Positions 30,990-45,268 of a stretch of DNA of 64,000 bases are shown in pieces (position 1 is the first letter of the stretch; every line of letters starts with the position of its first letter). This stretch comes from Leucobacter aridicollis (GTDB taxonomy: Bacteria > Actinomycetota > Actinomycetes > Actinomycetales > Microbacteriaceae). The DNA is taken from the NCBI RefSeq assembly GCF_024399335.1, contig NZ_CP075339.1, forward strand, positions 2,976,001-3,040,000, read 5' to 3'. The position numbers and the translations under genes are program-made. The notes beneath the pieces are model-generated. The model saw only the letters and a program-made list of their open reading frames with translations, had not been told where the DNA came from and searched no databases.

Positions 30990-31808
30990 CTACCCGGCGC
31001 GGTTGGGGAGCACGATCCGCTGGCCCGTCACCGGGTGGCGAATCACCTCGACAGGGGTGCGGTAGACGTCGGTCAGCACCTCAGCCTCAAGCACCTCGTC
31101 AGGCGCACCGTTCGCGACGATCTTGCCGTTTCGGAGCAGCGCGATCCTGTCGGAGTAGGCGCTCGCAAGGTTGAGGTCGTGCAACACGATGAGCACCGCA
31201 TCCCCGGCTGCGGCGCGTTCGCGCGCGAGCGTCAGCACTGCCTCCTGGTGGCCGAGGTCGAGCGCCGCAGTCGGCTCGTCGAGCATGAGCACGCCGGTGC
31301 GTCCGGCGATGACGCGTGCGAACGCCGTGCGTGCACGCTCGCCTCCCGACAGCGACGGGACCCTACGGTGCCCGAGGTGACCGATGTCAGTCGCCGAGAT
31401 CGCCTCACCGATCGCCTCATTGTCGTCATCTTCGAGCGGGGTGCGGCGCCACGGCGCTCGCCCCATCTCGACGACCTGGTGCACCGTGAACGGGAACAGC
31501 AGCTGGTTCTCCTGCAGCAGCACTGAGCGGCGGCGGGACAGGTCAACGAGAGACCATTCGTCGAGGGACTTGCCGCCGAACTCGACGCGGCCATCGTCTG
31601 GCTCAACATCACCAGAGAGCAGGCTCAGCAGGGTCGACTTGCCCGCACCGTTCGGGCCAAGAAGTGAGAGGACCTCGCCAGCGCGGAGGTCGAGCGAGAC
31701 GCTGTCGAGCAGTTTCTTGCGGCCGCGTTCGATTGTGACAGAGGCGGCGGCGCAGACGACGGTGCCGCTGTCGGCGACCGTCGGAAGTGCGATGTGGCGA
31801 GCGTTCAT
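30990..31808 (-). CDS. hmuV: Heme ABC transporter ATP-binding protein
   Basis: This 272-residue ATPase drives heme import through HmuU. It has Walker A LLGPNGAGKST, Q-loop VLLQENQLLFPFTVHQVVEMGR, signature LSGGERARTAFARV, Walker B VLMLDEPTAALD and the H-loop VLHDLNLASAYSDR. LFPFTVHQVV and the RTPVEVIRHPVTG C-terminus are HmuV-like. The ATG at 31808 overlaps the hmuU stop by one base (TAATG), so translation is coupled; a GTG at 31817 is less likely. Confidence 0.9.
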   Translation of the reverse strand: MNARHIALPTVADSGTVVCAAASVTIERGRKKLLDSVSLDLRAGEVLSLLGPNGAGKSTLLSLLSGDVEPDDGRVEFGGKSLDEWSLVDLSRRRSVLLQENQLLFPFTVHQVVEMGRAPWRRTPLEDDDNEAIGEAISATDIGHLGHRRVPSLSGGERARTAFARVIAGRTGVLMLDEPTAALDLGHQEAVLTLARERAAAGDAVLIVLHDLNLASAYSDRIALLRNGKIVANGAPDEVLEAEVLTDVYRTPVEVIRHPVTGQRIVLPNRAG

Positions 31809-32875
31809 TATCCCCACCCTCCCGAGCGCTTCCGTGTTCGTCTGAGCAGCCAGAAGAAGAACGGGCCACCGACGAGCGCCGTGAGAATGCCAATGGGGAG
31901 CTCGGCCATCGGCACGAGCGTACGCGCGGCAAGGTCGGCGAGCGTCATGAGGAGTGCGCCGGCGAGCGCGGTCGCTGTCACGAGCGGCAAATGTGCGGGG
32001 CCGAGGATCATGCGCATGAGGTGCGGGATGACGAGACCGACGAACGAGATGATGCCGGCGAACGCGACGGCTGCGCCGACGAGGAGCGAGACGACGAGGA
32101 TCATGCCGATCCGCAGCAGCTCAACGTTGACGCCGAGGTGGCGAGCGTTTCGCTCGCCGAGCGCGAGAAGGTCAAGCTTTCGCGACGAAACGTAGGCGGC
32201 GAACAGGCCGATCGCGATGATCGGTGCGACGACGAGCACCTGCGACCAGCTCATTCCTTTCAGGCTTCCGAGCTGCCAGAAAACGATCGCCTCACGCGAC
32301 TGGGTATCGCCCATGAACGTGAGCGCTGCAATCGCGGCACCGCCGATTGCGTTGACCGCGATACCTGTGAGCACAAGTGTGACGACCTCGGTGCGCCCTT
32401 CGGCCCGGCTCATCGAATAGACAATGAGCGTGGCGATGAGGCCAGTGAGGAAGGCGAGGATTGCCGTGGTCCACTGTCCAAAGACAGTGAGACCGAACAC
32501 GATCGAGATGCCGGCGCCGACCGCGGCACCAGACGAGATGCCGATGACACCGGGTTCAGCGAGCGGGTTCCCGAAGATCGCCTGCATGATGAGGCCTGAA
32601 ACCGAGAGGCCGACTCCGATGAGTACTGCCATTGCGACGCGCGGGAATCGGATCGCCCACAGTGCTTCGTCACCCGCGGGAACCGAGGGAAGCGGCAGCC
32701 AGTCGATGCCAATCCTGTGCAGGATCGAGCCGAGCACCTCCTGCGGCGGGATCGCGAGCTGACCCGTCCCGGCCGAGACGAGAACGCTCAACACGAGCAG
32801 CACTCCGAGGACGGCGAAGAGAATGGGTGCGCGACTACTCCGTCGTGTAGGCGAAGTGCGGCCTGTGTTATTCAT
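31808..32875 (-). CDS. hmuU: Heme ABC transporter permease (FecCD family)
   Basis: This 355-residue inner-membrane permease has about nine or ten helices and the FecCD family blocks: RFPRVAMAVLIGVGLSVSGLIMQ, NPLAEPGVIGISSGAAVGAG, and FAGIISFVGLVIPHLMR near the C-terminus. A permease of this family moves heme or siderophores; heme is preferred because of the adjoining HmuT-type protein and HtaA proteins. It diverges from hmuT across a 136-base gap holding a DtxR-like box, so one site could control both transcripts. Confidence 0.9.
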   Translation of the reverse strand: MNNTGRTSPTRRSSRAPILFAVLGVLLVLSVLVSAGTGQLAIPPQEVLGSILHRIGIDWLPLPSVPAGDEALWAIRFPRVAMAVLIGVGLSVSGLIMQAIFGNPLAEPGVIGISSGAAVGAGISIVFGLTVFGQWTTAILAFLTGLIATLIVYSMSRAEGRTEVVTLVLTGIAVNAIGGAAIAALTFMGDTQSREAIVFWQLGSLKGMSWSQVLVVAPIIAIGLFAAYVSSRKLDLLALGERNARHLGVNVELLRIGMILVVSLLVGAAVAFAGIISFVGLVIPHLMRMILGPAHLPLVTATALAGALLMTLADLAARTLVPMAELPIGILTALVGGPFFFWLLRRTRKRSGGWG

Positions 32876-32966
32876 GCTCGCGCGTGACGCTTTCTAGGAG
32901 ATCCGGGCGCGTTGAAGCACCGTGTACATGCGAGTCTTCGAGAGAACTCACACTTCATCATATCTT

Positions 32967-32988
32967 CGTGAGGTTAAGCTTGCTCACG
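32967..32988. promoter_or_regulatory. DtxR/IdeR-like operator between hmuU and hmuT
   Basis: The inverted repeat CGTGAG-N10-CTCACG contains AGGTTAAGCTT in its left half, close to the DtxR consensus half AGGTTAGGCTA. Located 24 bases before the hmuT start and in the divergent promoter region, it fits iron-dependent repression by DtxR or IdeR. It is not a perfect consensus match. Confidence 0.6.
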
Positions 32989-33011
32989 TCATACATACGA
33001 AAAGGGGATCG

Positions 33012-34130
33012 ATGCTCAAGGCTCGCACTTCTCGCACCCGGGCGGCAGTCGCGCTCGCACTGGGTCTCGCCCTTGCCCTGACGGGCTGCCAAACGGCCGG
33101 GCCGAACTCGTCAACTGACGAAACTGAGACAGTCGAGCTGCCGCCACTCGCGTCGCTCACCCCGCTTGAGAACCCTCTCGATTACGAGGGCCCGACGACA
33201 GCGATTGTGGGGGCACCGTCAGTCACGCCCCTTGCCGACAAGCCGAAGGCGACACTTCCGGTGACCGTGCAGTCGCACGACCGCACCGGCGACGTGCCAG
33301 TCGAGGTGACCGACACGTCTCGGGTGCTCGCCATCTCGCTCACAGGGACCCTCGCTGACATCGTCTACAACCTTGGCCTCGGTGATCAGCTCATCGGACG
33401 CGACGCGACGACAACGTTCCCCGGCTCTGAAGATCTCCCACTCGTCGTGACTGGCGGCCACGATATCGAGGCAGAGTCCGTGCTTGGCCTCGAGCCCACA
33501 GTGATCTTCACGGACCTCAGCGTCGGCGGCATCGACTTCGTGAACGTCATGCGCAACGCAGGCGTGCCCGTCGTTGTCGTCAAGCGCTCGATCGATCCCG
33601 CTTCGGCGGCCGAGGCAACTCAGCAGCTCGCTGAAGGCCTCGGCGTCTCAGCGGCAGCGACCGAGCTGAACGCCAAGGTCGCCGACGCGATCGCTGCGAA
33701 AGAGGAAGAGGTCGCCCGCCTCATTCCCGCTGACGAGGCCAACCGGCCGCGGGTCGCGTTCCTGTACGTTCGCGGTGGCGCCGGGATCTACTACCTGTTC
33801 GGTGAAGGGAGCGGGGTCGATACGCTCCTGCAATCGCTCGGCGTCATCGACGTTGCCGAAGAGGCAGGCTGGAAGGGTGAGCGCCCGATGACAGACGAGG
33901 CGCTCGTGAAGATGGACCCTGACATCATCCTCGTGATGTCGAAGGGACTCACGAGCACTGAGGGCGTGGACGGCCTGATCGAGGCTCAGCCAAGCATCGC
34001 GCTCACGACAGCAGGCAAGAAGCGCAGGATCATCGACATCAACGACTCGATGCTGTTTGCGAGCGCTGGGCGCACCCCCGACGTTATCGACGCCCTCGCC
34101 CGTGCGATATATGCGCCGGACTCGCTCTAA
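33012..34130 (+). CDS. hmuT: Heme ABC transporter substrate-binding lipoprotein
   Basis: This 372-residue lipoprotein has a signal peptide ending in LALTGC (Cys 26), followed by a Ser/Thr/Glu-rich linker and an HmuT/BtuF-type Fe-chelate binding domain. Family-typical blocks include RVLAISLTGTLADIVYNLGLGDQLIGRD and GGHDIEAESVLGLEPTVI. The DxxxY/H heme ligands cannot be fixed from sequence alone, but Y in GIYYLFGEGSG and the H in GGHDIEAE are candidates. AAAGGGGA lies before ATG 33012. The last 12 bases of the gene are part of a 69-bp direct repeat. Confidence 0.9.
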   Translation: MLKARTSRTRAAVALALGLALALTGCQTAGPNSSTDETETVELPPLASLTPLENPLDYEGPTTAIVGAPSVTPLADKPKATLPVTVQSHDRTGDVPVEVTDTSRVLAISLTGTLADIVYNLGLGDQLIGRDATTTFPGSEDLPLVVTGGHDIEAESVLGLEPTVIFTDLSVGGIDFVNVMRNAGVPVVVVKRSIDPASAAEATQQLAEGLGVSAAATELNAKVADAIAAKEEEVARLIPADEANRPRVAFLYVRGGAGIYYLFGEGSGVDTLLQSLGVIDVAEEAGWKGERPMTDEALVKMDPDIILVMSKGLTSTEGVDGLIEAQPSIALTTAGKKRRIIDINDSMLFASAGRTPDVIDALARAIYAPDSL

Positions 34131-34272
34131 CGGGCGCACCGCGCTCGGCGGTCCGGCGCTGCCGACGCCCCCGGCGGCAGCCGACGTGCGAAGCACGGAG
34201 GAAGACTCGCTCTAGCGGGCGCACCGCGCTCGGCGGTCCGGCGCTGCCGACGCCCCGGGCGGCAGCCGACGT
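34119..34272 (+). repeat. 69-bp direct repeat, first copy spanning the hmuT stop
   Basis: Copy one is 34119-34187 and copy two 34204-34272, with an 85-base period. They differ at two or so positions, including A to G in what is the hmuT stop TAA in copy one and TAG in copy two. Each copy contains a GCTGCCG/CGGCAGC hairpin, so the duplication has doubled the terminator-like stem behind hmuT. Confidence 0.85.
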
Positions 34273-34409
34273 CGTGCGGGATTGGGCGGGGTGTGGGCCG
34301 CTCCGAAGACGTTCAGGATGCACGGTGTCAAGGCACTGTATTCTTGAGCGTTGAAACTCTCGGACGCCTGTTGGCGATCGAGTTTGGGTAGGGGACCTTG
34401 GAGACACGG

Positions 34410-35009
34410 GTGACAAAGGAACACGAGGCGGCGCACGGCGCACGTTCGCGACGCACCGCGGCTTCCGACTACCCGGCCGACAGGTTTGATGAGATCCCGG
34501 TCGGCGGCCGCATTGGCGCCCACCGCGTGACGGCTCAACCACGCGTGACCTGGCACTTCGTGCTCGGCGGACTGATTGGCGCTGCCTTGCTGACGACTAT
34601 CGGCATTGTTGGTGTCACGATCGCGGGTTCGAGTGGCTCGCTGCCGCTGCCCTCTTCGCAGGGTCCGGCCGCCGCGGATACGAAAGTGAAACCTCAGCTC
34701 ACGCCTGAGGCAACTGTCGCGGTGCTCGACGGAACGACCGCCGAAGGCGACATGGCCCAGGCGCTCGCGACGATCATCACCGACGAGAAGTGGGGAACGA
34801 TTGTGCTTGCTGGCCCCGCCGCAGACACCGACAAAGAGATTTCAGCGGTCTTCTACTCAGATCCAGCGAACGAGCCCGCGGCGCTCGGGCTCGCCGAGAA
34901 GCTCGGCGGCGTTTCCACGTATCTCAACACCGAGTACGCCGAGGGCAACTCTGACCTCGTCGTGCTGATTGGCGCCGACTACGCCGGCCCCGGCAAGTCC
35001 GCGAAGTAG
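34410..35009 (+). CDS. LytR C-terminal domain membrane protein
   Basis: This 199-residue protein has a charged cytoplasmic N-terminus, one membrane helix (residues ~47-72), a Ser/Gly/Pro linker and a LytR_C-like extracellular domain beginning near VAVLDGTTAEGDMAQALATI and ending VVLIGADYAGPG. LytR_C domains occur in cell-wall enzymes and stand-alone membrane proteins of unknown role. GTG 34410 has GGAG six bases before it; TTG 34398 is an alternative. It precedes groEL on the same strand with the CIRCE elements between them. Confidence 0.8.
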   Translation: MTKEHEAAHGARSRRTAASDYPADRFDEIPVGGRIGAHRVTAQPRVTWHFVLGGLIGAALLTTIGIVGVTIAGSSGSLPLPSSQGPAAADTKVKPQLTPEATVAVLDGTTAEGDMAQALATIITDEKWGTIVLAGPAADTDKEISAVFYSDPANEPAALGLAEKLGGVSTYLNTEYAEGNSDLVVLIGADYAGPGKSAK

Positions 35010-35044
35010 TTCGTATCTCCGTTCGCTGCAGGCGAGCGCCCCTC

Positions 35045-35071
35045 CTTGCACTCTCAGCACCTGAGTGCCAA
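35045..35071 (+). promoter_or_regulatory. CIRCE-like element 1 (upstream, degenerate)
   Basis: CTTGCACTC-N9-GAGTGCCAA matches the HrcA operator TTAGCACTC-N9-GAGTGCTAA with two mismatches in the left arm and one in the right. It lies 26 bases upstream of the second, better copy and 98 bases before the groEL ATG. Confidence 0.75.
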
Positions 35072-35079
35072 AATTGGTG

Positions 35080-35106
35080 TTAGCAGTCGGATCGACTGAG
35101 TGCTAA
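35080..35106 (+). promoter_or_regulatory. CIRCE element 2 upstream of groEL
   Basis: TTAGCAGTC-N9-GAGTGCTAA matches the HrcA operator consensus with a single base change in the left arm. It predicts heat-shock control of groEL by HrcA. Confidence 0.9.
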
Positions 35107-36789
<1,683 letters not shown>

Positions 36790-36803
36790 GTCCCGCTAGG
36801 CAC

Positions 36804-36837
36804 AGGGCCGGTCACACCTTCTGGTGTGGCCGGCCCT
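36804..36837. terminator. Terminator downstream of groEL
   Basis: A 14-bp stem (GGGCCGGTCACACC with its complement, one mismatch) and a TTCT loop, ending in CCCTTCG, sits 15 bases after the groEL stop. It is between convergent genes and may also serve the HtaA gene on the other strand. Confidence 0.85.
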
Positions 36838-36902
36838 TCGTCGTTCTCCCCCTTTTGGCCCGGCAACGGCAACACGCCTGGCGCCGTGGGTGAGCCGGCG
36901 GA

Positions 36903-37751
36903 CTACTTCTCGGGCTTGCGCCCGCGCAGCAACAGCACTGTTGTTACCCCGATGCCGACGAGAGCAACGCCGCCGAGGGCAACGATCACCCATGGGATCT
37001 CGGGTCCGGCCTGACCAGCGGGATCGCCCGGCAGCACTTCTTCCTCGGGCGGTGCGGCAGTTCCTGTCGACACGGTGATGGCGCATCCGGGGAGCGTCAG
37101 CGAGACCGCGAGCGCGTCGAATGTTTCCCCTGGAGAGTAGTCGCCGTACTTGTTGTTGAAGGCCGCCGCACCAGCCTCGGTGAGATGGACGGGAGCCGCC
37201 TCAATCGAATAGCTCGAGCCGTCTCCTGTGTGCGCGCCAGCGATGTCAATATTTGCCGCGGTCACGGGTTCGAATACAAGCTCGCCGCCCTCAACGTCAG
37301 AGGCGGCCATCTCGAGCACGAGCTCTGCGGTTTTGGGGCTTGTGAATACGATCTGCGGGTTCCTGAGGTCCAACTGCATGAGTCCGCCGTGGCCCGTGAA
37401 GTGAATGCTCCCGGGGAACGTTACTGCTCCGCCCGAAAGGTCCTCGCGCACACCTCCGGTGCCGCTCGGCCAGGTGAACTGTGGGGTTTCGTAGGTCACG
37501 CCGCCCTCTGTGACCCACTCACCGCCCGCAATCGAGCCGCTGATGTAGTTACGGAAGCGCTCTTTGACGCCCCAGCGCAGCTCCGCCTCGCCCACAGCAC
37601 ACTCCCCCGCGGTAGCTGCAGTCGTATGCAGCGCGCCGCCCTCAGTGGGCCGCGCGAGGGCTGGCATGGCCGAGGCGGAGGCGAGGGCGCCTCCGAGAAG
37701 CGCGGCAGTCAGTCCGGCGGTGAGCGCGCGACATGCAGTGCGTCGGGTCAA
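36903..37751 (-). CDS. Single-domain HtaA heme-binding protein, C-terminal membrane anchor
   Basis: This 282-residue protein has a signal peptide (residues ~1-33), one HtaA domain (~55-225), a Pro/Glu-rich linker and a single C-terminal helix (~253-275) followed by RGRKPEK. No LPXTG-type motif is present. The HtaA heme triad known from Corynebacterium (Tyr-His-Tyr) is recognisable as Y69 in RFRNYI, H121 in HFTGHGG and Y205 in KYGDYSPG. Cys51 and Cys223 bracket the domain and probably form a disulfide. The start is TTG 37751, with AGGAG six bases upstream. It is the last gene of the four HtaA genes on this strand. Confidence 0.9.
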   Translation of the reverse strand: MTRRTACRALTAGLTAALLGGALASASAMPALARPTEGGALHTTAATAGECAVGEAELRWGVKERFRNYISGSIAGGEWVTEGGVTYETPQFTWPSGTGGVREDLSGGAVTFPGSIHFTGHGGLMQLDLRNPQIVFTSPKTAELVLEMAASDVEGGELVFEPVTAANIDIAGAHTGDGSSYSIEAAPVHLTEAGAAAFNNKYGDYSPGETFDALAVSLTLPGCAITVSTGTAAPPEEEVLPGDPAGQAGPEIPWVIVALGGVALVGIGVTTVLLLRGRKPEK

Positions 37752-37824
37752 GAGGTGCTCCTAGTGTTGCGGGCCGCGAGCGCAGCCTGAAACGAGAGTA
37801 GCAGCAGCCTCCTGCATACTTTCA

Positions 37825-37861
37825 GGGGCGGGGCGTAGCCCCCACGACTACACCCCGCCCC
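37825..37861. terminator. Terminator between the two single-domain HtaA genes
   Basis: A 14-bp GC-rich stem with one mismatch (37825-37838 and 37848-37861) and a 9-base loop lies 16 bases past the stop of the 37878-38777 gene. It would separate that transcript from the last HtaA gene, or set a lower read-through level. Confidence 0.8.
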
Positions 37862-37877
37862 TTGCCTCCGGAGACCG

Positions 37878-38777
37878 CTACTCGGGGTCGCCGCCTGGCT
37901 GCGCCTCGGCCGATCCTTCGCCGCCTTCCTGAGGCTTCTTCTTTCGCCCGCCGATGAGCATTCCCGTCGTGAGCGCAATCACAACAAGCGCTGCGCCGCC
38001 GACGATGATCGGAAGCCATGGAATGCGGGCCTCAGCCGTAACTGGAGTCGCTTCCTCGGCAGGCTGCGCGGGCGTAGGCTCCGCAGTCGGCTCTGTGGCG
38101 GTTGTGGCGGTCGCCTCGCACCCGGTGGTCTCAAGGCTGAGCGTCACGGGGTCGAGTTCGGCTCCGGCCTCGTAGAAGCCGGCGAAGGCGGCGGCGCCAG
38201 AGTTTGTGAGGGATGCCTGCATTGCGCTGATCTCGAGCTTCTCGCCTTGCAGTGCGACTGCTGCCGGTGCGACGAGCTCGCCAACCCACTCTTGAGCCGT
38301 GTCGACGGTGACCTTGCCCTCCATATCTGTGCTCTTCGCGTCGAGCATGAGCGCAGCGTTCCCATCACCCTCGAACTCGATCGTCGGGTTCGCGAGGGTG
38401 AGGTCGAGAACTCCGTCGTGCCCGGTGAAGTGCACCGATCCTGCGAACGACACCTCACCGACGCCTGTCGCAGGGTCGAGCTCGCCGGCCCCACCCGTCC
38501 AGGTGAACTCGGGCGTCTCGTAGGTCACACCGTCGCCTGGCTCCCAGGAGCCGTTCGCGATCGAGCCGCTGATGTATGAGCGAAAGCTCGCTTTGACTCC
38601 CCACTTCAGCGTGCCACCGGTGATCTCGCAGCTGCCGGTGCCCGCTGGGGCGGCAGTTGACTGCGCAATGCTCGAGGGTGCCAGCGCCTGTGCGGCCGCA
38701 GGTGCGACGAGCATGGCTGCGACGACTGCCGCGCCCGAAACGGCCGCGCTAAGTCGAGAGGCTGCGCGTGATTTCAC
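37878..38777 (-). CDS. Single-domain HtaA heme-binding protein, C-terminal membrane anchor (second copy)
   Basis: This 299-residue protein has the same plan as its neighbour: signal peptide (~1-32), one HtaA domain (~54-222), a Thr/Pro/Glu-rich linker, a hydrophobic helix (~254-277) and a basic then acidic tail. The triad is Y68 (SFRSYI), H120 (HFTGHDG) and Y202 (GFYEAG); Cys50 and Cys220 flank the domain. GTG 38777 has AAGGAG seven bases before it; a start at 38825 would add an Arg-rich stretch that does not look like a signal peptide. It is 66 bases downstream of the large three-domain HtaA gene. Confidence 0.9.
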   Translation of the reverse strand: MKSRAASRLSAAVSGAAVVAAMLVAPAAAQALAPSSIAQSTAAPAGTGSCEITGGTLKWGVKASFRSYISGSIANGSWEPGDGVTYETPEFTWTGGAGELDPATGVGEVSFAGSVHFTGHDGVLDLTLANPTIEFEGDGNAALMLDAKSTDMEGKVTVDTAQEWVGELVAPAAVALQGEKLEISAMQASLTNSGAAAFAGFYEAGAELDPVTLSLETTGCEATATTATEPTAEPTPAQPAEEATPVTAEARIPWLPIIVGGAALVVIALTTGMLIGGRKKKPQEGGEGSAEAQPGGDPE

Positions 38778-38843
38778 TGTGATTCTCCTTCGTCGGCGAC
38801 CGCGATCCCGCAAGCCGCGCCACATCGTTTGAAGCCGTAGGGG

Positions 38844-41800
38844 CTATCGGTTGGCTGCCCGCTGTCGGACGGCGAGGGTCGTGGTGCAGCCGGCGATTGC
38901 GACGAGCGAGAGCGCGACGACCCACCACTCCCAGAGAGCCATTCCGGATCCGCCGGCGCCGAGCACAGGTCCCGCGCCCGTCGCCGCGGCGAGCGGCTGG
39001 GTGGTGACCTCCACAAGTTCTTCAGCCGACTTCTTCGCTTTCGCGTCCTTCGGGAGGATCGTGATCTTCGCTCCCACATCAGTGCTTCCCTGCAGCGTGA
39101 GCACGTGTGCGCCCGGCTGAATGTCGTCGGGAAGCTTGCCAGTCCAGTGCACGACGCCAAACTTGTCTGCAGTCGCCTCCTCGTCAAGCACGATCGGATC
39201 CGAGTAGAGCACCACGAGCACTCCCTCGTCTTCAGGGTCAAACCCTGCGGCCTGGATCTCGATGCGTGCGCCGGGAACGAGCTTGTCCTTGTCGGTGACA
39301 ATCGTCAGGCCCTCGGTCGTGGGAGGCGTCGCTGCCGCGACACGCTTTTCCTTGGCGTCCTTACCTGCGACTGTCGAGCCGTAACTCACCTTGCTCGCCG
39401 CACCGACGGTGAAGGAGAGCGCGTCAAAAGCGATCGACTGGCTCGCGGACAAACCCATCAAACTTCCAACCACGGGAACATTTGACCAGGTGACCTCACC
39501 GCCAGACCCGACGGTCTTCGTGGCCCTGGACAGGTCGAGCTGCACAGAGCTGGGCCCGTACGAGCCCGAGTACCCTGTGGTCAGAGTGGCTGTTGCGGGC
39601 CCTGTTACAGTGATCGTCGGGTTGATGACGCTGAACATTGTCGTCCCATAGCCCTTGAAGGAGACCGACCCGGTGTAGTTCACCGTCCCTGTGTGGTTTT
39701 TCGCGTTCCAGGTACTCCCCGCCTGCGGGAAGAGGTACCCCGAGCCGACACCGCTGGTTGCTATCTCGCCGCCAGCACAGTGTTTGCCCGCTGTTGGGCA
39801 GGCGGCAGTATTTGACCTTGCCGTCGTGTAGCCGGCGAACTGCGACGAGATACCCCACTTCAAGGAGCCTGCACCCGGTGCAGCTGGCGGAGCGGTTGGC
39901 TTTGGAGTCACCGGCTTTGCTGCTGAGTCAATTGTCAGTTTGACGGAGTTCGAGTTTGAGTGGGAGTAGTTCTCACTGTCGGCAGGTTCAAACAGCGCCT
40001 GCGCTGTGTAGACGCCCTCCGGCAATTTGGTAGTAGCAAGCTTTGCGACACCGTTCGAAACGCTGACCGGCGAGCCAAGCTTGGTCGTGCCGTAGCTAAA
40101 CGTCACCTTCCCGTCGATCCGCGGATTCACGGTTGCGGTGAACGTAACAGTTGCACCAACCTTCGCAGAGGCAGGGGTTGCCGAGAGCGTGACACTCGTT
40201 GGCTGCCTGTCAATAACAGTGAAGTCCCCTGGCAGCGAGAAGTTCAGCGGATCGAGCTCTGAGCCCTTCTCGTAAAAGCCCCCGAACGCAATCTCGCCCT
40301 CCGCGGTGAGACGAGCGCCCACGTTCGACCAGGAGAGCAGCCCGGAGTCGGTGTCAAGCTTCGGTACGCTCAACGACAGCTGCGCCATCGGGGTGTCGCG
40401 CAGAGTGAACTTCTTGCCGACGCTCTCCATCCCCTCAAAGGTGTAGCCATCGACATCCATGTGGAGCCGGCCGCTAGTGGGGGAAAGGATCTCGATACGC
40501 GGGTTCGTAAACTTCAGATCGAGAGCGTAGACGGTCTTCCCACCTACAGTCATTGGGTGCGACTGGAAATGTACACCGTTGCCTGAGCCGAATCCGACAT
40601 TCGCCCGGGTTCCATCGTCTGCCGCAGTTCCGGTACCACCCGACCACAAATATGCACCCTTGGATTGCGGCTGCTTGGTCGTGCCAAGGAGCTGAGCACG
40701 TCCCTTGAACGCCGTGAAGTCGTAGATGTACTTGCGGAATGATTCGCGAACGCCCCACTCAAGTGTCGCATTCTCGATCTTGCTCGTTCCCCCAGACGCC
40801 GCAGTGACGCGCACCGAGTGCGCGGTCGACTCGGACGGGGCAAAAGCCTTCGGGTCCGCCGGAACGAAACGAGCCGTAATTGTGTGGGTTCCTGACTTGA
40901 GTTCAGCAGTCTGCAGCGTCGAACGGCCCTTTTGCGCTTCGACCGGCGCACCAAGTGGCTTGCCGTCCACCAAGAACTGGATTGAGCCCGAGGCGTTCTC
41001 GGGGCTGACATCCGCAATAAATGTCGCGGGCTTTCCGGCGGAAACGAGTGTCGTACTCGCCTCGTTCATTTTGACGCCGGTCTGCACGACCTCGGGGTTC
41101 TCACCGCCTGGGTTCTCACCGCCTGGGTTCTCACCGCCTGGGTTCTCACCGCCTGGGTTCTCACCACCTGGGTTCTCACCACCTGGATTCTCACCGCCGG
41201 TGTTCGGGCCCGCCTCAACGGGAAGTGTGAAGGTTACCGGATCCAGAGCCTCGCCCGGGGCGTAGAACGCCCCGCCACCGAAGGCCACAGATCCTTCCTC
41301 GGTCAGCACAGCCGAGGCATCCGTCCACGTCAATGTGGAACCGTCGACCGTTGGCTGTGGAAGCGTGAGTGACGCAATTGGAGCGTCAATCAACGAGAAC
41401 GGCTCTCCGAGTTCAGTCGTGCTCTTAAACTCGAAGCCTTGTACGTCCATGCGCACCTCGCCCGTTGTGGGCGAGGTGACAACCACGCGCGGATTGGTAA
41501 ATTCGGCGTCGAGCACGGCGACGCTCTGACCGTCAATCTGCATCGAGTGCCCGCGGAATTGAACACCGTTGCCCACGCCGAAGCTGACGTTGGCTTCAGA
41601 GCCATCGACGGCGCTCTCCCCCGACCCTTCACCCCAGTGATAGCTGCCCGAGGCCGTCGGGGCCGTTGACCCGAGCATCACGATGCTGCCCTGGGCGATT
41701 GGACCGCCAATGTACTTTCGAAACGACTCTTTAATGCCCCAGTCGAGTGATGCCCCGGCTACCGCACCTCGAGGCGCTGCCGCCTGAGCTGCATCAGCTA

Positions 41801-41921
41801 CGACAGCGCTCAGGGAAGCCCCAAGAGCGAGCGCGATCGCAAGCGCGCCGCCCAGCACACGGCGTACGCGATCCCGGGCGGTGGCACGGCCAGATAGTGT
41901 TTCGGTGTGGTGGGTAGACAC
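38844..41921 (-). CDS. Large three-domain HtaA surface protein with Ig-like domains
   Basis: This 1025-residue protein is exported and anchored by a C-terminal helix. Order: signal peptide (~1-49); HtaA domain 1 (~57-237, triad Y70, H125, Y220); seven GGENP repeats (242-276); Ig-like domain (~280-373); HtaA domain 2 (~383-565, triad Y398, H455, Y550); Ig-like domain (~575-665); HtaA-like domain 3 (~685-840); a C-terminal beta domain (~868-957) with GARIEIQAAGFDPEDEG; and a helix (~996-1016) without a sortase motif. Domain 3 has Y698 but Tyr758 replaces the His, the last Tyr is missing, and it has two Cys (708, 715). GTG 41921 has GGAGGG at 7-base spacing. Confidence 0.9.
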   Translation of the reverse strand: MSTHHTETLSGRATARDRVRRVLGGALAIALALGASLSAVVADAAQAAAPRGAVAGASLDWGIKESFRKYIGGPIAQGSIVMLGSTAPTASGSYHWGEGSGESAVDGSEANVSFGVGNGVQFRGHSMQIDGQSVAVLDAEFTNPRVVVTSPTTGEVRMDVQGFEFKSTTELGEPFSLIDAPIASLTLPQPTVDGSTLTWTDASAVLTEEGSVAFGGGAFYAPGEALDPVTFTLPVEAGPNTGGENPGGENPGGENPGGENPGGENPGGENPGGENPEVVQTGVKMNEASTTLVSAGKPATFIADVSPENASGSIQFLVDGKPLGAPVEAQKGRSTLQTAELKSGTHTITARFVPADPKAFAPSESTAHSVRVTAASGGTSKIENATLEWGVRESFRKYIYDFTAFKGRAQLLGTTKQPQSKGAYLWSGGTGTAADDGTRANVGFGSGNGVHFQSHPMTVGGKTVYALDLKFTNPRIEILSPTSGRLHMDVDGYTFEGMESVGKKFTLRDTPMAQLSLSVPKLDTDSGLLSWSNVGARLTAEGEIAFGGFYEKGSELDPLNFSLPGDFTVIDRQPTSVTLSATPASAKVGATVTFTATVNPRIDGKVTFSYGTTKLGSPVSVSNGVAKLATTKLPEGVYTAQALFEPADSENYSHSNSNSVKLTIDSAAKPVTPKPTAPPAAPGAGSLKWGISSQFAGYTTARSNTAACPTAGKHCAGGEIATSGVGSGYLFPQAGSTWNAKNHTGTVNYTGSVSFKGYGTTMFSVINPTITVTGPATATLTTGYSGSYGPSSVQLDLSRATKTVGSGGEVTWSNVPVVGSLMGLSASQSIAFDALSFTVGAASKVSYGSTVAGKDAKEKRVAAATPPTTEGLTIVTDKDKLVPGARIEIQAAGFDPEDEGVLVVLYSDPIVLDEEATADKFGVVHWTGKLPDDIQPGAHVLTLQGSTDVGAKITILPKDAKAKKSAEELVEVTTQPLAAATGAGPVLGAGGSGMALWEWWVVALSLVAIAGCTTTLAVRQRAANR
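41094..41198 (-). repeat. Seven 15-bp tandem repeats encoding GGENP
   Basis: Seven in-frame units of 15 bases encode Gly-Gly-Glu-Asn-Pro within the 1025-residue HtaA protein, just after HtaA domain 1. Units differ by one or two bases at most. The high identity makes copy number likely to vary by replication slippage, changing linker length by five residues per unit without shifting the frame. Confidence 0.95.
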
Positions 41922-42035
41922 GCTAAATCCCTCCGGAAGCGCGAGCCATGGACCTCGAAGTGTCCGAGCCGCAATGCGCCCGATGCAGTGGTGGATAGAA
42001 GACTGTTTGGGTCGGGCGGCTGTTCCCGAACCGAA

Positions 42036-42082
42036 GGCGTGTGGCCCCTCCCGTCGATATCCGACGGGGTGGACCACACGCC
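42036..42082. terminator. Terminator between the two large HtaA genes
   Basis: A two-part stem is formed by GGCGTGTGG/CCACACGCC (42036-42044, 42074-42082) and the inner CCCGTCG/CGACGGG. It lies 20 bases after the stop of the upstream HtaA gene and about 115 bases before the next start. Confidence 0.85.
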
Positions 42083-42102
42083 TGCAGAGCCAACGAGAGA
42101 CG

Positions 42103-45048
42103 CTACTCTGCGGTTTCGCCCTGGCGTCGACGGAGAACAATGACTCCAGCGCCGAGCAGCAGGAGCGCGCCAGCTGCGACGAACGCTGCGGTTGCCGGAG
42201 CAGAGCCACTGTTTGCAAGAGCCTTGCCCGTGTCTCCACCGGTCGCGCCCTTGCCTGGGTCAGTTCCAGGAGTGGTCGTGCCGGTATTGCCGCCCTCTGT
42301 CTCGCCACCCGTGACACTCTTTGCGACAACCTCAAAGGCGTTCTCAAAAGCGAACACTCGACCAGACTCATTGTCGGTTACGACGATGTCATGCGTTCCG
42401 ACTTCGAAGTCGGCGGGCACGGTCCAGGTCGCCGTCACAAAGCCGTCAGCGTCCGTGGCGATGGGCTCCGGGAGCTCGACGACGTCCGAATGGATCTCGA
42501 TCTTGAACTCGGTATCGGTCACAAACGGACCGATCTTGAGCTCGAGAGCCTCGCCAGGATTGATCTTCGCCTTGCCACTCGGTGCGCCGTTGATCAGCGC
42601 CACCGGCTGCGCGGCGAGCGTGATGCTCACTGGCTCGGAGGTTGAGGCGGCGAACACGTCCGTGTTGCTCGGCACAAACTTCGCCGTCACGGCGTTCGAG
42701 CCTGCGCCCAGTGCTGTGGTCTTGAGCGTTGCCTTACCCGCAGCTGCTTCTACCGCATCTCCGAGTACGACGCCGTTGTTCAGGAACTGCACGGCACCGG
42801 GGACCTCAGTCGGCACGGTGGCAGTGAATTCAATGGAATCACCTGCGTAAAGGGCACCGGCGGACGCCTCAACCTCAACAGTGGTCTCGTGCGCCGGAGC
42901 AAACTCAACCGCAGTCTTCGTCTCGAACGGAGCGTACTTCACGCCACCACCCGCGTACGTGTACACGCCATACGTGCCATCGGCAAGCGCCTTCGCGCTG
43001 TCCTTGCTCAGCTTCAGCGTCGTCTCAAACGAACCGTCAGCCTTCAACTCAACGCCACCCATCGCAGCGATAGTCGGCAGCTCAGCAGCCTGCACAGCCC
43101 ACTTCGTGTCGAACGTCTTACGTGCCGACGACGGAGCGTTTGTTGACGGAGCCCACTGATCAGCGAACGAACCGAACACCACGTAAACGCCGCTGAACTT
43201 CCCAGCGAACGGCGGGTACTGCCCGTTCGTCACTGGAGCCTTCGGCAAGAACCCCGTACCGGTCACGGTCACGGTCTCGCCAGCCGGATCAATCCCGGAA
43301 GTCTTGGCAACAGTCACCTTCGGAGTCGGACGCTCAGTCACAGCAACAGACACCGCAGCAGACGTCGACGCGTTGTACGCATCAGTGTTCGCGGGAGTGA
43401 ACTCAGCAGTCACATCGTTCGCGCCGACCTCAACAAGATCGTTCGTCTTCAGCACAGCCGAATCGTTCTGCACCTCGACGGGCTCACCAATCGCCTTGCC
43501 GTTGCTCTTGAACTGCACCGAACCAGCAACGCCCTTCGAAACCGCAGCAGTCAGCGTGACCTGGTCACCCGACACCAGCGACGCAGCGGACGCTTCAACC
43601 TCAACAGTGGTGTCCTGGGCTGGGACGGCAAATGTGATCTCGGTGTACGACTCGAACGGAGCGTACTTCACGCCACCACCAGCGTAGGTGTAGATGCCGT
43701 AGCGGCCGCCCTCTAGCTCCTTCGCCTCATCCTTTGTCAGCTTCAGGGTCGTCGAGAACGTTCCGTCAGCTTTCAGTTCGATACCGCCGCGGGCTGCGCC
43801 GCCAATCGTTGCGACGTCGGCTGCGTGCACTCCCCACTTGGTGTCAAGCGCCACGCGTGCGCTCGCAGGGGCATCCTTCGAGGGCTCCCAGTTCTCAGCG
43901 AACGAGCCGAATACGATGTAGGCGCCTGCGAACTTGCCAGCGAGCGGCTGACGAGTGCCGTTGGTCGCGGGAGCATCGGGGAGGAACCCTGTACCCGTTA
44001 CGGTTACTGTCTCGCCATCCGGGTCGATCCCGGTTGCCTTTGAAACAGACACTGTAATCGGGTCGCGCTTTACCTTGACGTCGACGGTGACCTCTGCGGA
44101 GGCCGAGCCTGTAAATGCATCAGCGTCGGTCGGCACAAAGTTCGCCGTGATCTTCGCCGACCCGACGGGGAGGGTCTTGACGTCGAGCGAAGCAACGCCG
44201 TTGGTTACAGCAACAGGGGCTCCGAGCTGCGAACCGTTCGCCGCAAACGCCACGGTTCCTGCGGCGGCCACAGGAGCGACAGTCGCGGTGAGCTTTACGC
44301 TGTCCCCTTCGGTAACCGAGGATGCCGAAGCGGTGAGTGAGGTCGTGGTCTCCTCGGCTGGGACCTTCACGGTCACCGGCAGCGAGAACGTGACGGGGTC
44401 GAGCGCATCGCCAGCTTTGTAGAACGCGCCTCCGCCGAATGCGATCGCGCCATCAGCCGTGAGCTTCGCCGGGGCGTTCGTCCAGGTGCGCACGTCGCCT
44501 GCGACAGTCGGGGCGGGCAGTTCCAACGTCGCGATCGCCGCATCGCTCAGGCTGTATGGAGCACCGATCTCCGTGGTGCTCTTGAACTCGTAGCCTTCGA
44601 CGTCCATGCGGAGCTCAGCAGTGGTCGCTGAAGTGACGACAATGTGCGGCGCGGAGAATGCCGCGTCGAGGACGTACCGGTCCTCTCCCTCGACCTTCAG
44701 ACTGTGCCCCTGGAAGTGAACACCGTCTCCGGCTGCGAAGGCCACGTCTGCCGCGCTTCCGTCGGCGGCAGCCGTTCCTGAACCACCAGCCCAGCTAAAC
44801 GTGCCGGAGCCGGTCTTCTGGGCGCCGCCGAGCATCGTGACCTGCCCCTTGGCGATCACGCTGGCAATGTAGTTGCGGAACGACTCCTTGACTCCCCATT
44901 CGAGGGTGGCGCCGGATACGGTGCCCTCTCCTGCTGCGGGGGCCGCGGTGGCCACCGTCGGGGCAAGAGCGAGGCCACTTGCGACGAGCAGTGCCGAGGT
45001 CAACGTCGCGATGAGCGACTTACCCTTTCGGCGCTCAGTGACTTTCAT
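42103..45048 (-). CDS. HtaA protein with two tandem modules, Ig-like domains and a LANSG sortase signal
   Basis: This ~981-residue protein has a signal peptide (~1-36), one HtaA domain (~47-225) with triad Y60, H115, Y210, then an Ig-like domain (~234-325). Next come module A (~340-475), Ig-like (~480-572), module B (~585-718) and Ig-like (~721-812). A last beta domain (~820-910) and a Gly/Thr-rich linker lead to LANSG near residue 945, a hydrophobic helix and RRRQGETAE. LAxTG-like signals are substrates of actinobacterial class E sortases. ATG 45048 has AAGGAG nine bases upstream. It is the first of the four HtaA genes. Confidence 0.88.
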   Translation of the reverse strand: MKVTERRKGKSLIATLTSALLVASGLALAPTVATAAPAAGEGTVSGATLEWGVKESFRNYIASVIAKGQVTMLGGAQKTGSGTFSWAGGSGTAAADGSAADVAFAAGDGVHFQGHSLKVEGEDRYVLDAAFSAPHIVVTSATTAELRMDVEGYEFKSTTEIGAPYSLSDAAIATLELPAPTVAGDVRTWTNAPAKLTADGAIAFGGGAFYKAGDALDPVTFSLPVTVKVPAEETTTSLTASASSVTEGDSVKLTATVAPVAAAGTVAFAANGSQLGAPVAVTNGVASLDVKTLPVGSAKITANFVPTDADAFTGSASAEVTVDVKVKRDPITVSVSKATGIDPDGETVTVTGTGFLPDAPATNGTRQPLAGKFAGAYIVFGSFAENWEPSKDAPASARVALDTKWGVHAADVATIGGAARGGIELKADGTFSTTLKLTKDEAKELEGGRYGIYTYAGGGVKYAPFESYTEITFAVPAQDTTVEVEASAASLVSGDQVTLTAAVSKGVAGSVQFKSNGKAIGEPVEVQNDSAVLKTNDLVEVGANDVTAEFTPANTDAYNASTSAAVSVAVTERPTPKVTVAKTSGIDPAGETVTVTGTGFLPKAPVTNGQYPPFAGKFSGVYVVFGSFADQWAPSTNAPSSARKTFDTKWAVQAAELPTIAAMGGVELKADGSFETTLKLSKDSAKALADGTYGVYTYAGGGVKYAPFETKTAVEFAPAHETTVEVEASAGALYAGDSIEFTATVPTEVPGAVQFLNNGVVLGDAVEAAAGKATLKTTALGAGSNAVTAKFVPSNTDVFAASTSEPVSITLAAQPVALINGAPSGKAKINPGEALELKIGPFVTDTEFKIEIHSDVVELPEPIATDADGFVTATWTVPADFEVGTHDIVVTDNESGRVFAFENAFEVVAKSVTGGETEGGNTGTTTPGTDPGKGATGGDTGKALANSGSAPATAAFVAAGALLLLGAGVIVLRRRQGETAE
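42895..44031 (-). repeat. Internal duplication of a ~135-residue module plus Ig-like domain
   Basis: Two long similar segments (about 43625-44031 and 42895-43296, period near 730 bases) encode modules A and B of the HtaA protein, each followed by an Ig-like domain. Both share GETVTVTGTGFLP, KYAPFE and YTYAGGGVKYAPFE. Nucleotide similarity is very high around the last motif (near 42922 and 43651), so the duplication looks recent or is kept alike by gene conversion. Confidence 0.85.
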
Positions 45049-45268
45049 GCGTAAGCACTCCTTGTTCAGAACCTGGGCACGGCAAAACGCCGACGCCTGA
45101 TACATCGGATCGAACTAAGGATGCCCTAAGCTCAATCTCCGGTGAATAGTCTGACGAATATCGTCTGATGATGCAAGCTGCAGATCAGACCTGAGCGAGT
45201 TTTCGTGCAAATTGCGCACAGTTCACGACGCGTATGCTTGAACCACACGAAGATCCTCGGAGGTCACC
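45049..45268. other. Divergent intergenic region between HtaA gene and msrB
   Basis: This 220-base gap must hold promoters for both genes. A small palindrome GACGA-ATA-TCGTC at 45153-45165 could be an operator. A TTAGG-like sequence near 45120 does not fit the spacing of a DtxR box. Confidence 0.45.

Follow-up and report, generated by a model that had tools for sequence, protein, structure and literature searches.

The closest described relatives of the locus reported here are the hmu-hta-cht systems of Corynebacterium diphtheriae and C. glutamicum, which comprise HtaA, HtaB, ChtA, HmuTUV and HmuO. According to the accessible sections of PMC12494546, the C. diphtheriae proteins with CR (HtaA-type) domains carry one such domain each (HtaA carries two) and a C-terminal helix; HtaA, ChtA and ChtC lie exposed at the surface, and HtaB and ChtB are buried. 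In the same sections, the CR domains take up hemin after its release from hemoglobin and show no hemoglobin binding by nuclear magnetic resonance, with the authors leaving hemoglobin binding by other segments of the full-length proteins possible (PMC12494546). Here, we analyzed a stretch of 64,000 nucleotides (the window) of the 3.6-Mb single-contig genome of Leucobacter aridicollis, positions 2976001-3040000, which carries the importer genes hmuTUV and four genes for HtaA-type proteins, H1 to H4. H1 additionally contains two copies, X1 and X2, of a domain with a predicted neocarzinostatin fold, a fold known mainly from antibiotic-carrier proteins. We propose, with a probability of about 0.6, that the locus encodes a Leucobacter heme-iron uptake relay in which X1 and X2 would serve as an outer-surface capture or ligand-binding module and not as inert spacers.

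A predicted CR-domain heme-uptake locus in Leucobacter

Domains matching PF04213 were found once in H1, three times in H2 and once each in H3 and H4, at 46-163 bits each against a cut-off of 24, and PF04213 had no match in the genome beyond these six. Alignments to solved relatives bore out an earlier sequence-only note on this DNA (the original prediction) in that five of the six domains carry a Tyr-His-Tyr triad, whose residues bind hemin in the solved relatives; the sixth is D3, the third domain of H2. The importer genes encode a heme-type ATPase, a permease and a binding protein with His and Tyr ligands. The nearest solved chain of HmuT is 5az3, which we take to be C. glutamicum HmuT, and both the GGH and the Y-x-R stretches lie within the alignment. 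According to the accessible text of PMC4926363, His141, Tyr240 and Arg242 belong to the heme site of the C. glutamicum protein. The gene content and coordinates predicted earlier (hmuUV and hmuT, four HtaA genes, six domains) also hold, on the PF04213, NF010068 and FecCD matches. Judged by domains, residues and gene order, heme uptake through HtaA-type proteins together with HmuTUV is a well supported prediction.

The X domains of H1

A 150-residue domain occurs twice in H1, as X1 (residues ~345-495) and X2 (~593-740), and Pfam and NCBIfam scans of H1 placed no named family over either. The Ig-like spacers seen previously are Big_3_5 domains in five cases, and the two ~150-residue stretches of H1 appear neocarzinostatin-like instead. 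In the fold comparison of the predicted model, the first seven entries, of which six bear the name neocarzinostatin or macromomycin, were separated by a gap from the eighth, which points to a neocarzinostatin fold; among the entries are mutants in complex with testosterone hemisuccinate. Within Pfam, X domains matched PF00960 most often, with 25 of 73 reaching E<=0.1 and a best value of 2e-6, and the X of one relative exceeded its curated cut-off (34.4 versus 25 bits). Profile searches of solved-structure sequences with X and X-like alignments gave nothing useful.

Fourteen columns, W63, R74, W81 and E140 among them, are invariant across 73 X domains. Eight of the 14 fall in an insertion of ~38 residues relative to PF00960 within X 41-92, as estimated from the Pfam alignments of X2 (9-40 to model positions 1-31) and of the L052 domain (93-124 to 46-78). 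In six near relatives of H1 (P0001, P0003, P0004, P0005, L026 and L027), X2 identity was 79, 97, 97, 68, 69 and 67%, respectively, compared with 68, 82, 84, 62, 55 and 55% for the HtaA domain, and X2 was conserved above the CR domain and every Big domain.

Association of X with heme loci

X loci were collected from a named genome collection with a 16-copy alignment and one peptide pattern, and the best 80 of 147 stretches gave 78 loci. HtaA was counted in them with our own profiles at >=25 bits, or down to ~10 bits in a weaker count. At >=25 bits, HtaA lay in the X open reading frame (ORF) at 48 loci and elsewhere at 6, hmuT or hmuU was present without HtaA at 14, and neither was found at 10, so that HtaA or hmuT/hmuU accompanied X at 68 of the 78. 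The corresponding numbers in the weaker count were 53, 7, 12 and 6; its problem is illustrated by L067, where HtaA scored 12-13 bits with no Pfam HtaA match. At five of the six loci with neither in the weaker count, X lies within ~1.2 kb of an end of the available stretch, the exception being L118. X also occurs on proteins with an SLH-type anchor and without HtaA at hta/hmu loci (L030, L033 and L035 at 195-216 bits; L060 weakly, at 36 bits), and at L148 an X ORF without HtaA follows hmuTUV.

Within the family, X was found in 44 of 199 genomes. In a sample of 295 genomes of the phylum, excluding our own, X was found in 7 (a count that may be low, with at most 12 candidates scored per genome), HtaA in 13 and both in 5 (Fisher p 1.4e-6, with relatedness ignored and the two samples taken as the same draw). 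In all seven X genomes, X lay in an HtaA ORF or beside hmuTUV, the link in one of them, G379, being a single HtaA-like match of 21 bits to our own profile, with no PF04213 match and no hmu gene nearby.

Two sets of side observations concern such loci. At some loci lacking an HtaA call, N-terminal regions of ~270 amino acids (RWGIN/DWAVN...) resemble a divergent HtaA domain by eye, as in L093:8954-11029, L131:9071-10813 and L086:8498-10948; among the two proteins scanned with the Pfam HtaA model, L093 reached 18.7 bits (cut-off 24) and L131 had no match. In Nocardioides, Cellulomonas, Bifidobacteriaceae and other groups (among them L093:5470-6735, L131, L103 and L097), hmuV is followed by the gene for a protein with a C-terminal helix and a neocarzinostatin-like domain, in which an invariant His in GAHGV could be a heme ligand.

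Anchoring and a proposed relay

The C-terminus of H1 consists of LANSG, a hydrophobic helix and RRR, and H2 to H4 end in a hydrophobic stretch with no sortase motif, as the original prediction had stated. Of the three kinds of HtaA-protein anchoring that it proposed, two were seen, and a third is reached only by counting the lipobox of HmuT. Six of eight H1 relatives have LANSG, LAASG or LANTG at the same place, L027 has LEKTG and L026 none. The genome has six sortase matches, and the four classified are three of class C and one of class E (L010). A protein of the genus with an SLH anchor lies among the hta genes at L023 (854 amino acids), L028, L030, L033, L034, L035 and L060, those of L028 and L034 being recognized by pattern alone; Pfam confirmed SLH at all five scanned of these seven loci. 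In several loci, the SLH protein occupies the place of the putatively sortase-anchored H1, and the anchoring module thus seems to have been swapped. A sortase-like tail protein was found at 10 of 27 Leucobacter loci and an SLH-type tail at 7 of 27. The size and anchor mix, earlier called unusual, proved common within the genus, where multi-domain HtaA proteins with mixed anchors are the norm; of the original interpretation as a whole, the heme-uptake part was well supported, the layered relay is plausible, and the claim of unusualness failed within the genus.

In the relay that we propose, the class E sortase would attach H1 to the wall, H1 would reach furthest outward, and its CR domain would take up hemin at the surface. 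Hemin would then pass to membrane-held H2, in which D3, nearest the membrane, may act last, and on through H3/H4 to HmuT and HmuUV. A heme oxygenase, for which a single gene is present elsewhere in the genome, would release the iron after import, and the locus would be under iron control. X1 and X2 would form a dedicated outer-surface module that binds hemin, another tetrapyrrole or a hemoprotein; from sequence, hemoprotein capture by X appears as likely as hemin binding. Such a layered relay is plausible in Leucobacter by analogy, because the CR proteins of C. diphtheriae occupy surface-exposed and buried places.

Weighing the role of X

Several observations weigh against this proposal. For X2 of the window, the PF00960 match had E 0.014 and 15.8 bits against a cut-off of 25, a PF00960 search of its own genome gave nothing at E 0.001, and Foldseek by itself put an antibody first for X and had no neocarzinostatin in its top 50. 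The alignment of 73 X domains has conserved Tyr but no invariant His, Met or Cys. Big2 (68, 95 and 93%) is as conserved as X1 (68, 90 and 92%) in the three nearest relatives, and in the distant relatives L024/L025, X1 and X2 (35-42%) fall below HtaA (47-52%), Big1 (50-56%) and Big2 (45-48%). X is not universal, being present at 19 of 27 Leucobacter loci, and the phylum comparison carries the candidate limit given above. The association with heme genes describes this subfamily, because such loci were the source of the X profile; the general PF00960 model gave 18 matches in 11 of 296 phylum genomes, and two of these 18 matches (in G252 and G358) lay by an HtaA match. As to the anchor, the H1 tail stayed below the cut-offs of both anchor models (Gram_pos_anchor, 15.8 of 20 bits; NCBIfam LAVTG, 17.4 of 27), and LANSG is a T-to-S variant of the LAXTG-type motif.

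X could be structural, with rigid neocarzinostatin/Ig-type stalk units that, together with Big_3_5, lift the H1 CR domain above the wall and leave the relay otherwise unchanged. The alternation of X with Big_3_5 in H1, its copy number of 0 to 5 per Leucobacter locus, similar to stalk repeats, the Ig-like sandwich of the neocarzinostatin fold, and the conservation just described for L024/L025 and for Big2 would fit a stalk, whereas the 14 invariant columns, the stronger conservation of X2 than of HtaA or any Big domain among the six near relatives, the X-SLH proteins without HtaA at heme loci and the way X tracks heme loci speak against it; we regard this as quite possible, though short of even odds. 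We think it unlikely that the ligand of X is neither heme nor a hemoprotein (a wall polymer or hydrophobic metabolite, for instance) and that X sits with hta and hmu merely because all of them are envelope genes: neocarzinostatins do carry a non-heme chromophore and PF00960 proteins are also found away from heme genes, but X lies by HtaA or hmuTUV in all seven phylum genomes that have it (weakly in G379). The Actinoplanes protein CwpG, whose neocarzinostatin-like domain is described without heme in the accessible text of PMC13251363, is a further point for a non-heme ligand. An importer for siderophore or cobalamin, with the hta genes as mere neighbors, would agree with BtuC models being the best NCBIfam matches of HmuU, all of them below their own cut-offs; since HmuV exceeds the curated heme cut-off, the best solved relative of HmuT is 5az3 and hta adjoins hmu at 23 of 27 loci, we hold it to be very improbable.

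The capture or ligand-binding role thus stays our preferred reading of X. X is probably not an inert spacer, because of its invariant columns, the conservation of X2, the X-SLH proteins and the association across the phylum. More tentatively, and less likely than not, the X family may form a distinct class of surface domain that captures tetrapyrroles or hemoproteins, with a neocarzinostatin fold. This class would work together with CR domains and, in certain lineages, with a helix-anchored sister protein whose gene lies just behind hmuV. If true, it would be an actinobacterial counterpart of a receptor module, and a third Gram-positive heme-capture fold besides CR and NEAT.

A ChtA-like third domain in H2

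D3 keeps the axial Tyr; the triad His is replaced by a Tyr helper, a Cys pair with HC is present, and no residue matching the propionate Tyr was found in the alignment. The first Foldseek match of its model was ChtA (9o0k, E 1.1e-5). A phmmer search with D3 alone matched 6jsa at no better than E 0.77, so that Pfam and the model were needed. According to its predicted structure, D3 resembles C. diphtheriae ChtA and is not simply a domain without the triad, a point that the original prediction missed. A site with a Tyr helper plus Cys pair is described for ChtA and expected for ChtC of pathogenic corynebacteria in the accessible part of PMC12494546. D3 would thus be a Leucobacter parallel to the ChtA-type site, independent of the X question.

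Regulation and transcription units

Candidate DtxR/IdeR-like boxes were scored with a matrix built from all 38 sites with <=5 mismatches from the DtxR consensus in the loci of 40 relatives (771 kb, promoters and genes). The box at the divergent hmuU/hmuT promoter has 7 mismatches to this consensus, and the window contained no site within 3 mismatches of the strict consensus. With a matrix from the consensus alone, the box upstream of H1 came first (12.1) and the hmuU/hmuT box was tied with two other places at 8.5. Five column-shuffled matrices had best scores of 9.8-14.2 at other places. In eight other stretches of the genome (89 kb; heme-oxygenase, dtxR-type and sortase genes), the true matrix gave maxima of 6.8-11.3, all below the hmuU/hmuT box (11.9) and not all below the H1 box (9.1). 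We rate the hmuU/hmuT site as fair and the H1 site as weak, which is suggestive of iron regulation; two genomic matches were found for PF02742, a domain of the DtxR family.

The hairpins after H1 and H3 (fold z -4.1 for the latter) suggest three transcription units, namely H1, H2-H3 and H4, and a single H1-H4 operon was dropped in view of their strength. A terminator pattern scan found no more sites than in shuffled sequences, and the H1 hairpin was not among them.

In L141:94-2907, the heme oxygenase gene is convergent with an apparent histidine kinase/response regulator pair and apparently encodes an extra N-terminal domain. The pair recalls the heme-responsive HrrSA and ChrSA. Heme uptake for want of heme synthesis was considered and dropped, HemB being present in the genome (only the HemB step was covered).

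Locus layout and genus context

The gene order across the locus is hmuV-hmuU(-), hmuT(+), lytR_C(+), groEL(+), H4-H3-H2-H1(-) and msrB(+) (Table 1). The starts of H2, H3 and hmuT were chosen by a plausible ribosome site, that of hmuT being the ATG behind AAAGGGG. Nothing indicates a role of groEL or lytR_C in heme uptake, and both were dropped as players.

HtaA was found in 81 of the 149 genomes searched, our own included, and 52 of 53 other genomes of the genus had 1-8 matches, with none in G039. The order msrB-hta-hmu-lytR_C-groEL recurs across the genus and in some other genera. For 27 Leucobacter loci, the window and 26 chosen from the HtaA matches, features were assigned by our own profiles and patterns, and 26 of them had an H2-type C domain on an HtaA protein. 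Separately, 41 loci were annotated, of which 27 contained hta, hmuT and groEL and 14 were incomplete; in 23 of these 27, hta adjoins hmu with groEL outside, and groEL lies between them in 4 (the window, L026, L027 and L057). The split is a rearrangement within one lineage, because those four loci carry the hmu-lytR_C-groEL block in the opposite orientation to hta. The locus was earlier called split, and lytR_C and groEL do lie between hmuT and hta; the arrangement is specific to this lineage. The accessible part of PMC6868719 describes hmuTUV in a Leucobacter strain reported to be without htaABC, and also a Leucobacter that depends on heme.

Table 1 Features of the Leucobacter aridicollis locus (coordinates of the window)
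Feature	Coordinates	Strand	Basis
H1: HtaA, Big, X1, Big, X2, Big, C domain, putative sorting signal	42103..45048	-	Pfam, sequence
H1 HtaA domain, canonical Tyr-His-Tyr	44359..44925	-	best solved relative 6js9, E 1.4e-21
X1, predicted neocarzinostatin-fold domain of H1	43612..44073	-	same family as X2, 64% identical
X2, predicted neocarzinostatin-fold domain of H1	42886..43341	-	same family as X1
Putative C-terminal sorting signal of H1, LANSG at 42205-42219	42106..42219	-	sequence, below cut-offs of two anchor models; class E sortase in genome
H2: three HtaA and two Big_3_5 domains, C-terminal helix, GTG start	38844..41921	-	PF04213, Pfam
H2 domain a, canonical Tyr-His-Tyr	41202..41768	-	alignments
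H2 domain b, canonical Tyr-His-Tyr	40212..40784	-	alignments
D3, ChtA-like HtaA domain of H2	39342..39881	-	PF04213; predicted local distance difference test (pLDDT) of model 89.3; Foldseek
H3: one HtaA domain (38103-38630), C-terminal helix, GTG start	37878..38777	-	PF04213 161 bits; 6jsa and 8smu, E 1.2e-33
H4: one HtaA domain (37068-37601), C-terminal helix	36903..37751	-	PF04213 122 bits; best solved relative 6jsa
hmuV, heme ATP-binding cassette (ABC) transporter ATPase	30990..31817	-	NF010068 300 bits, cut-off 261
hmuU, FecCD-type permease	31808..32875	-	PF01032, E 1.8e-90
hmuT, heme-binding lipoprotein	33012..34130	+	phmmer to 5az3, E 3.7e-46; LTGC lipobox by reading
LytR_C-domain protein (lytR_C), no pointer to heme role	34398..35009	+	PF13399
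groEL, between hmu and hta in window lineage; synteny marker	35170..36789	+	ORF read by eye
DtxR/IdeR-like box, divergent hmuU/hmuT promoter	32969..32987		matrix 11.9, first of 63,982 window positions
DtxR/IdeR-like box ahead of H1, weak	45116..45134		matrix 9.1, second of 63,982 window positions
Strong hairpin behind H1, candidate transcription end	42035..42083	-	86% complementary arms; fold z -6.2

Some further observations were made along the way. The linker of H2 contains tandem 15-nucleotide repeats coding GGENP (41065-41220), and a 69-nucleotide direct repeat, 97% identical, lies at and behind the end of hmuT (34119-34187 and 34204-34272). The Pfam model PF25850 matches H1 and its relatives P0001-P0005, P0019, P0020 and P0023 (precomputed matches). 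At L034:9587-12504, an H2-like gene is split across two reading frames, with the end of the C domain in another ORF. A pilus-like cluster, recognized by reading, with LPxTG-type surface proteins and two sortase genes lies at L157:1206-9785 (genome 355001-372000).

Comparison with known systems

The window shares with the corynebacterial systems an axial Tyr, a helper His (Tyr in ChtA), a propionate Tyr, helix anchors, HmuTUV and a heme oxygenase encoded outside the locus. The nearest solved structures are 6js9 (HtaA N-terminal domain) for the H1 domain, 6jsa (HtaA C-terminal domain) for H3/H4 and, by Foldseek, 9o0k (ChtA) for D3. The window differs by its sortase-type tail, its Big_3_5 and predicted neocarzinostatin-fold modules, and its proteins of up to 1025 amino acids, with three CR domains in one protein. 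In outline, the NEAT-domain (Isd) relay of Bacillota works alike, with anchored hemoproteins handing hemin to an ABC importer, whereas the window has CR domains and no NEAT among its Pfam matches at E<=0.1; the accessible part of PMC12494546 compares the two domain types.

Compared with the neocarzinostatin family (PF00960; neocarzinostatin and macromomycin), X differs by ~38 extra residues and by its place in anchored surface proteins at heme loci. Titles, beginnings of abstracts and term counts of the literature, an incomplete coverage, contained no link between a neocarzinostatin domain and heme uptake. Like H1, Actinoplanes CwpG (IPR002186) has a neocarzinostatin-like domain and is a predicted wall-anchored sortase substrate; in contrast to H1, the accessible text of PMC13251363 states no HtaA domain or heme link for it and lacks the word heme. 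Being conserved, separately anchored and tracking these loci, X is a concrete candidate for the capture of a heme source at Leucobacter-like surfaces. If this is true, the neocarzinostatin fold gains a role in nutrient uptake, and X-like modules beside heme importers in related bacteria may be an unrecognized heme-capture component. The locus is a variant of the known CR-domain heme system, and the X module is the part that deserves attention.

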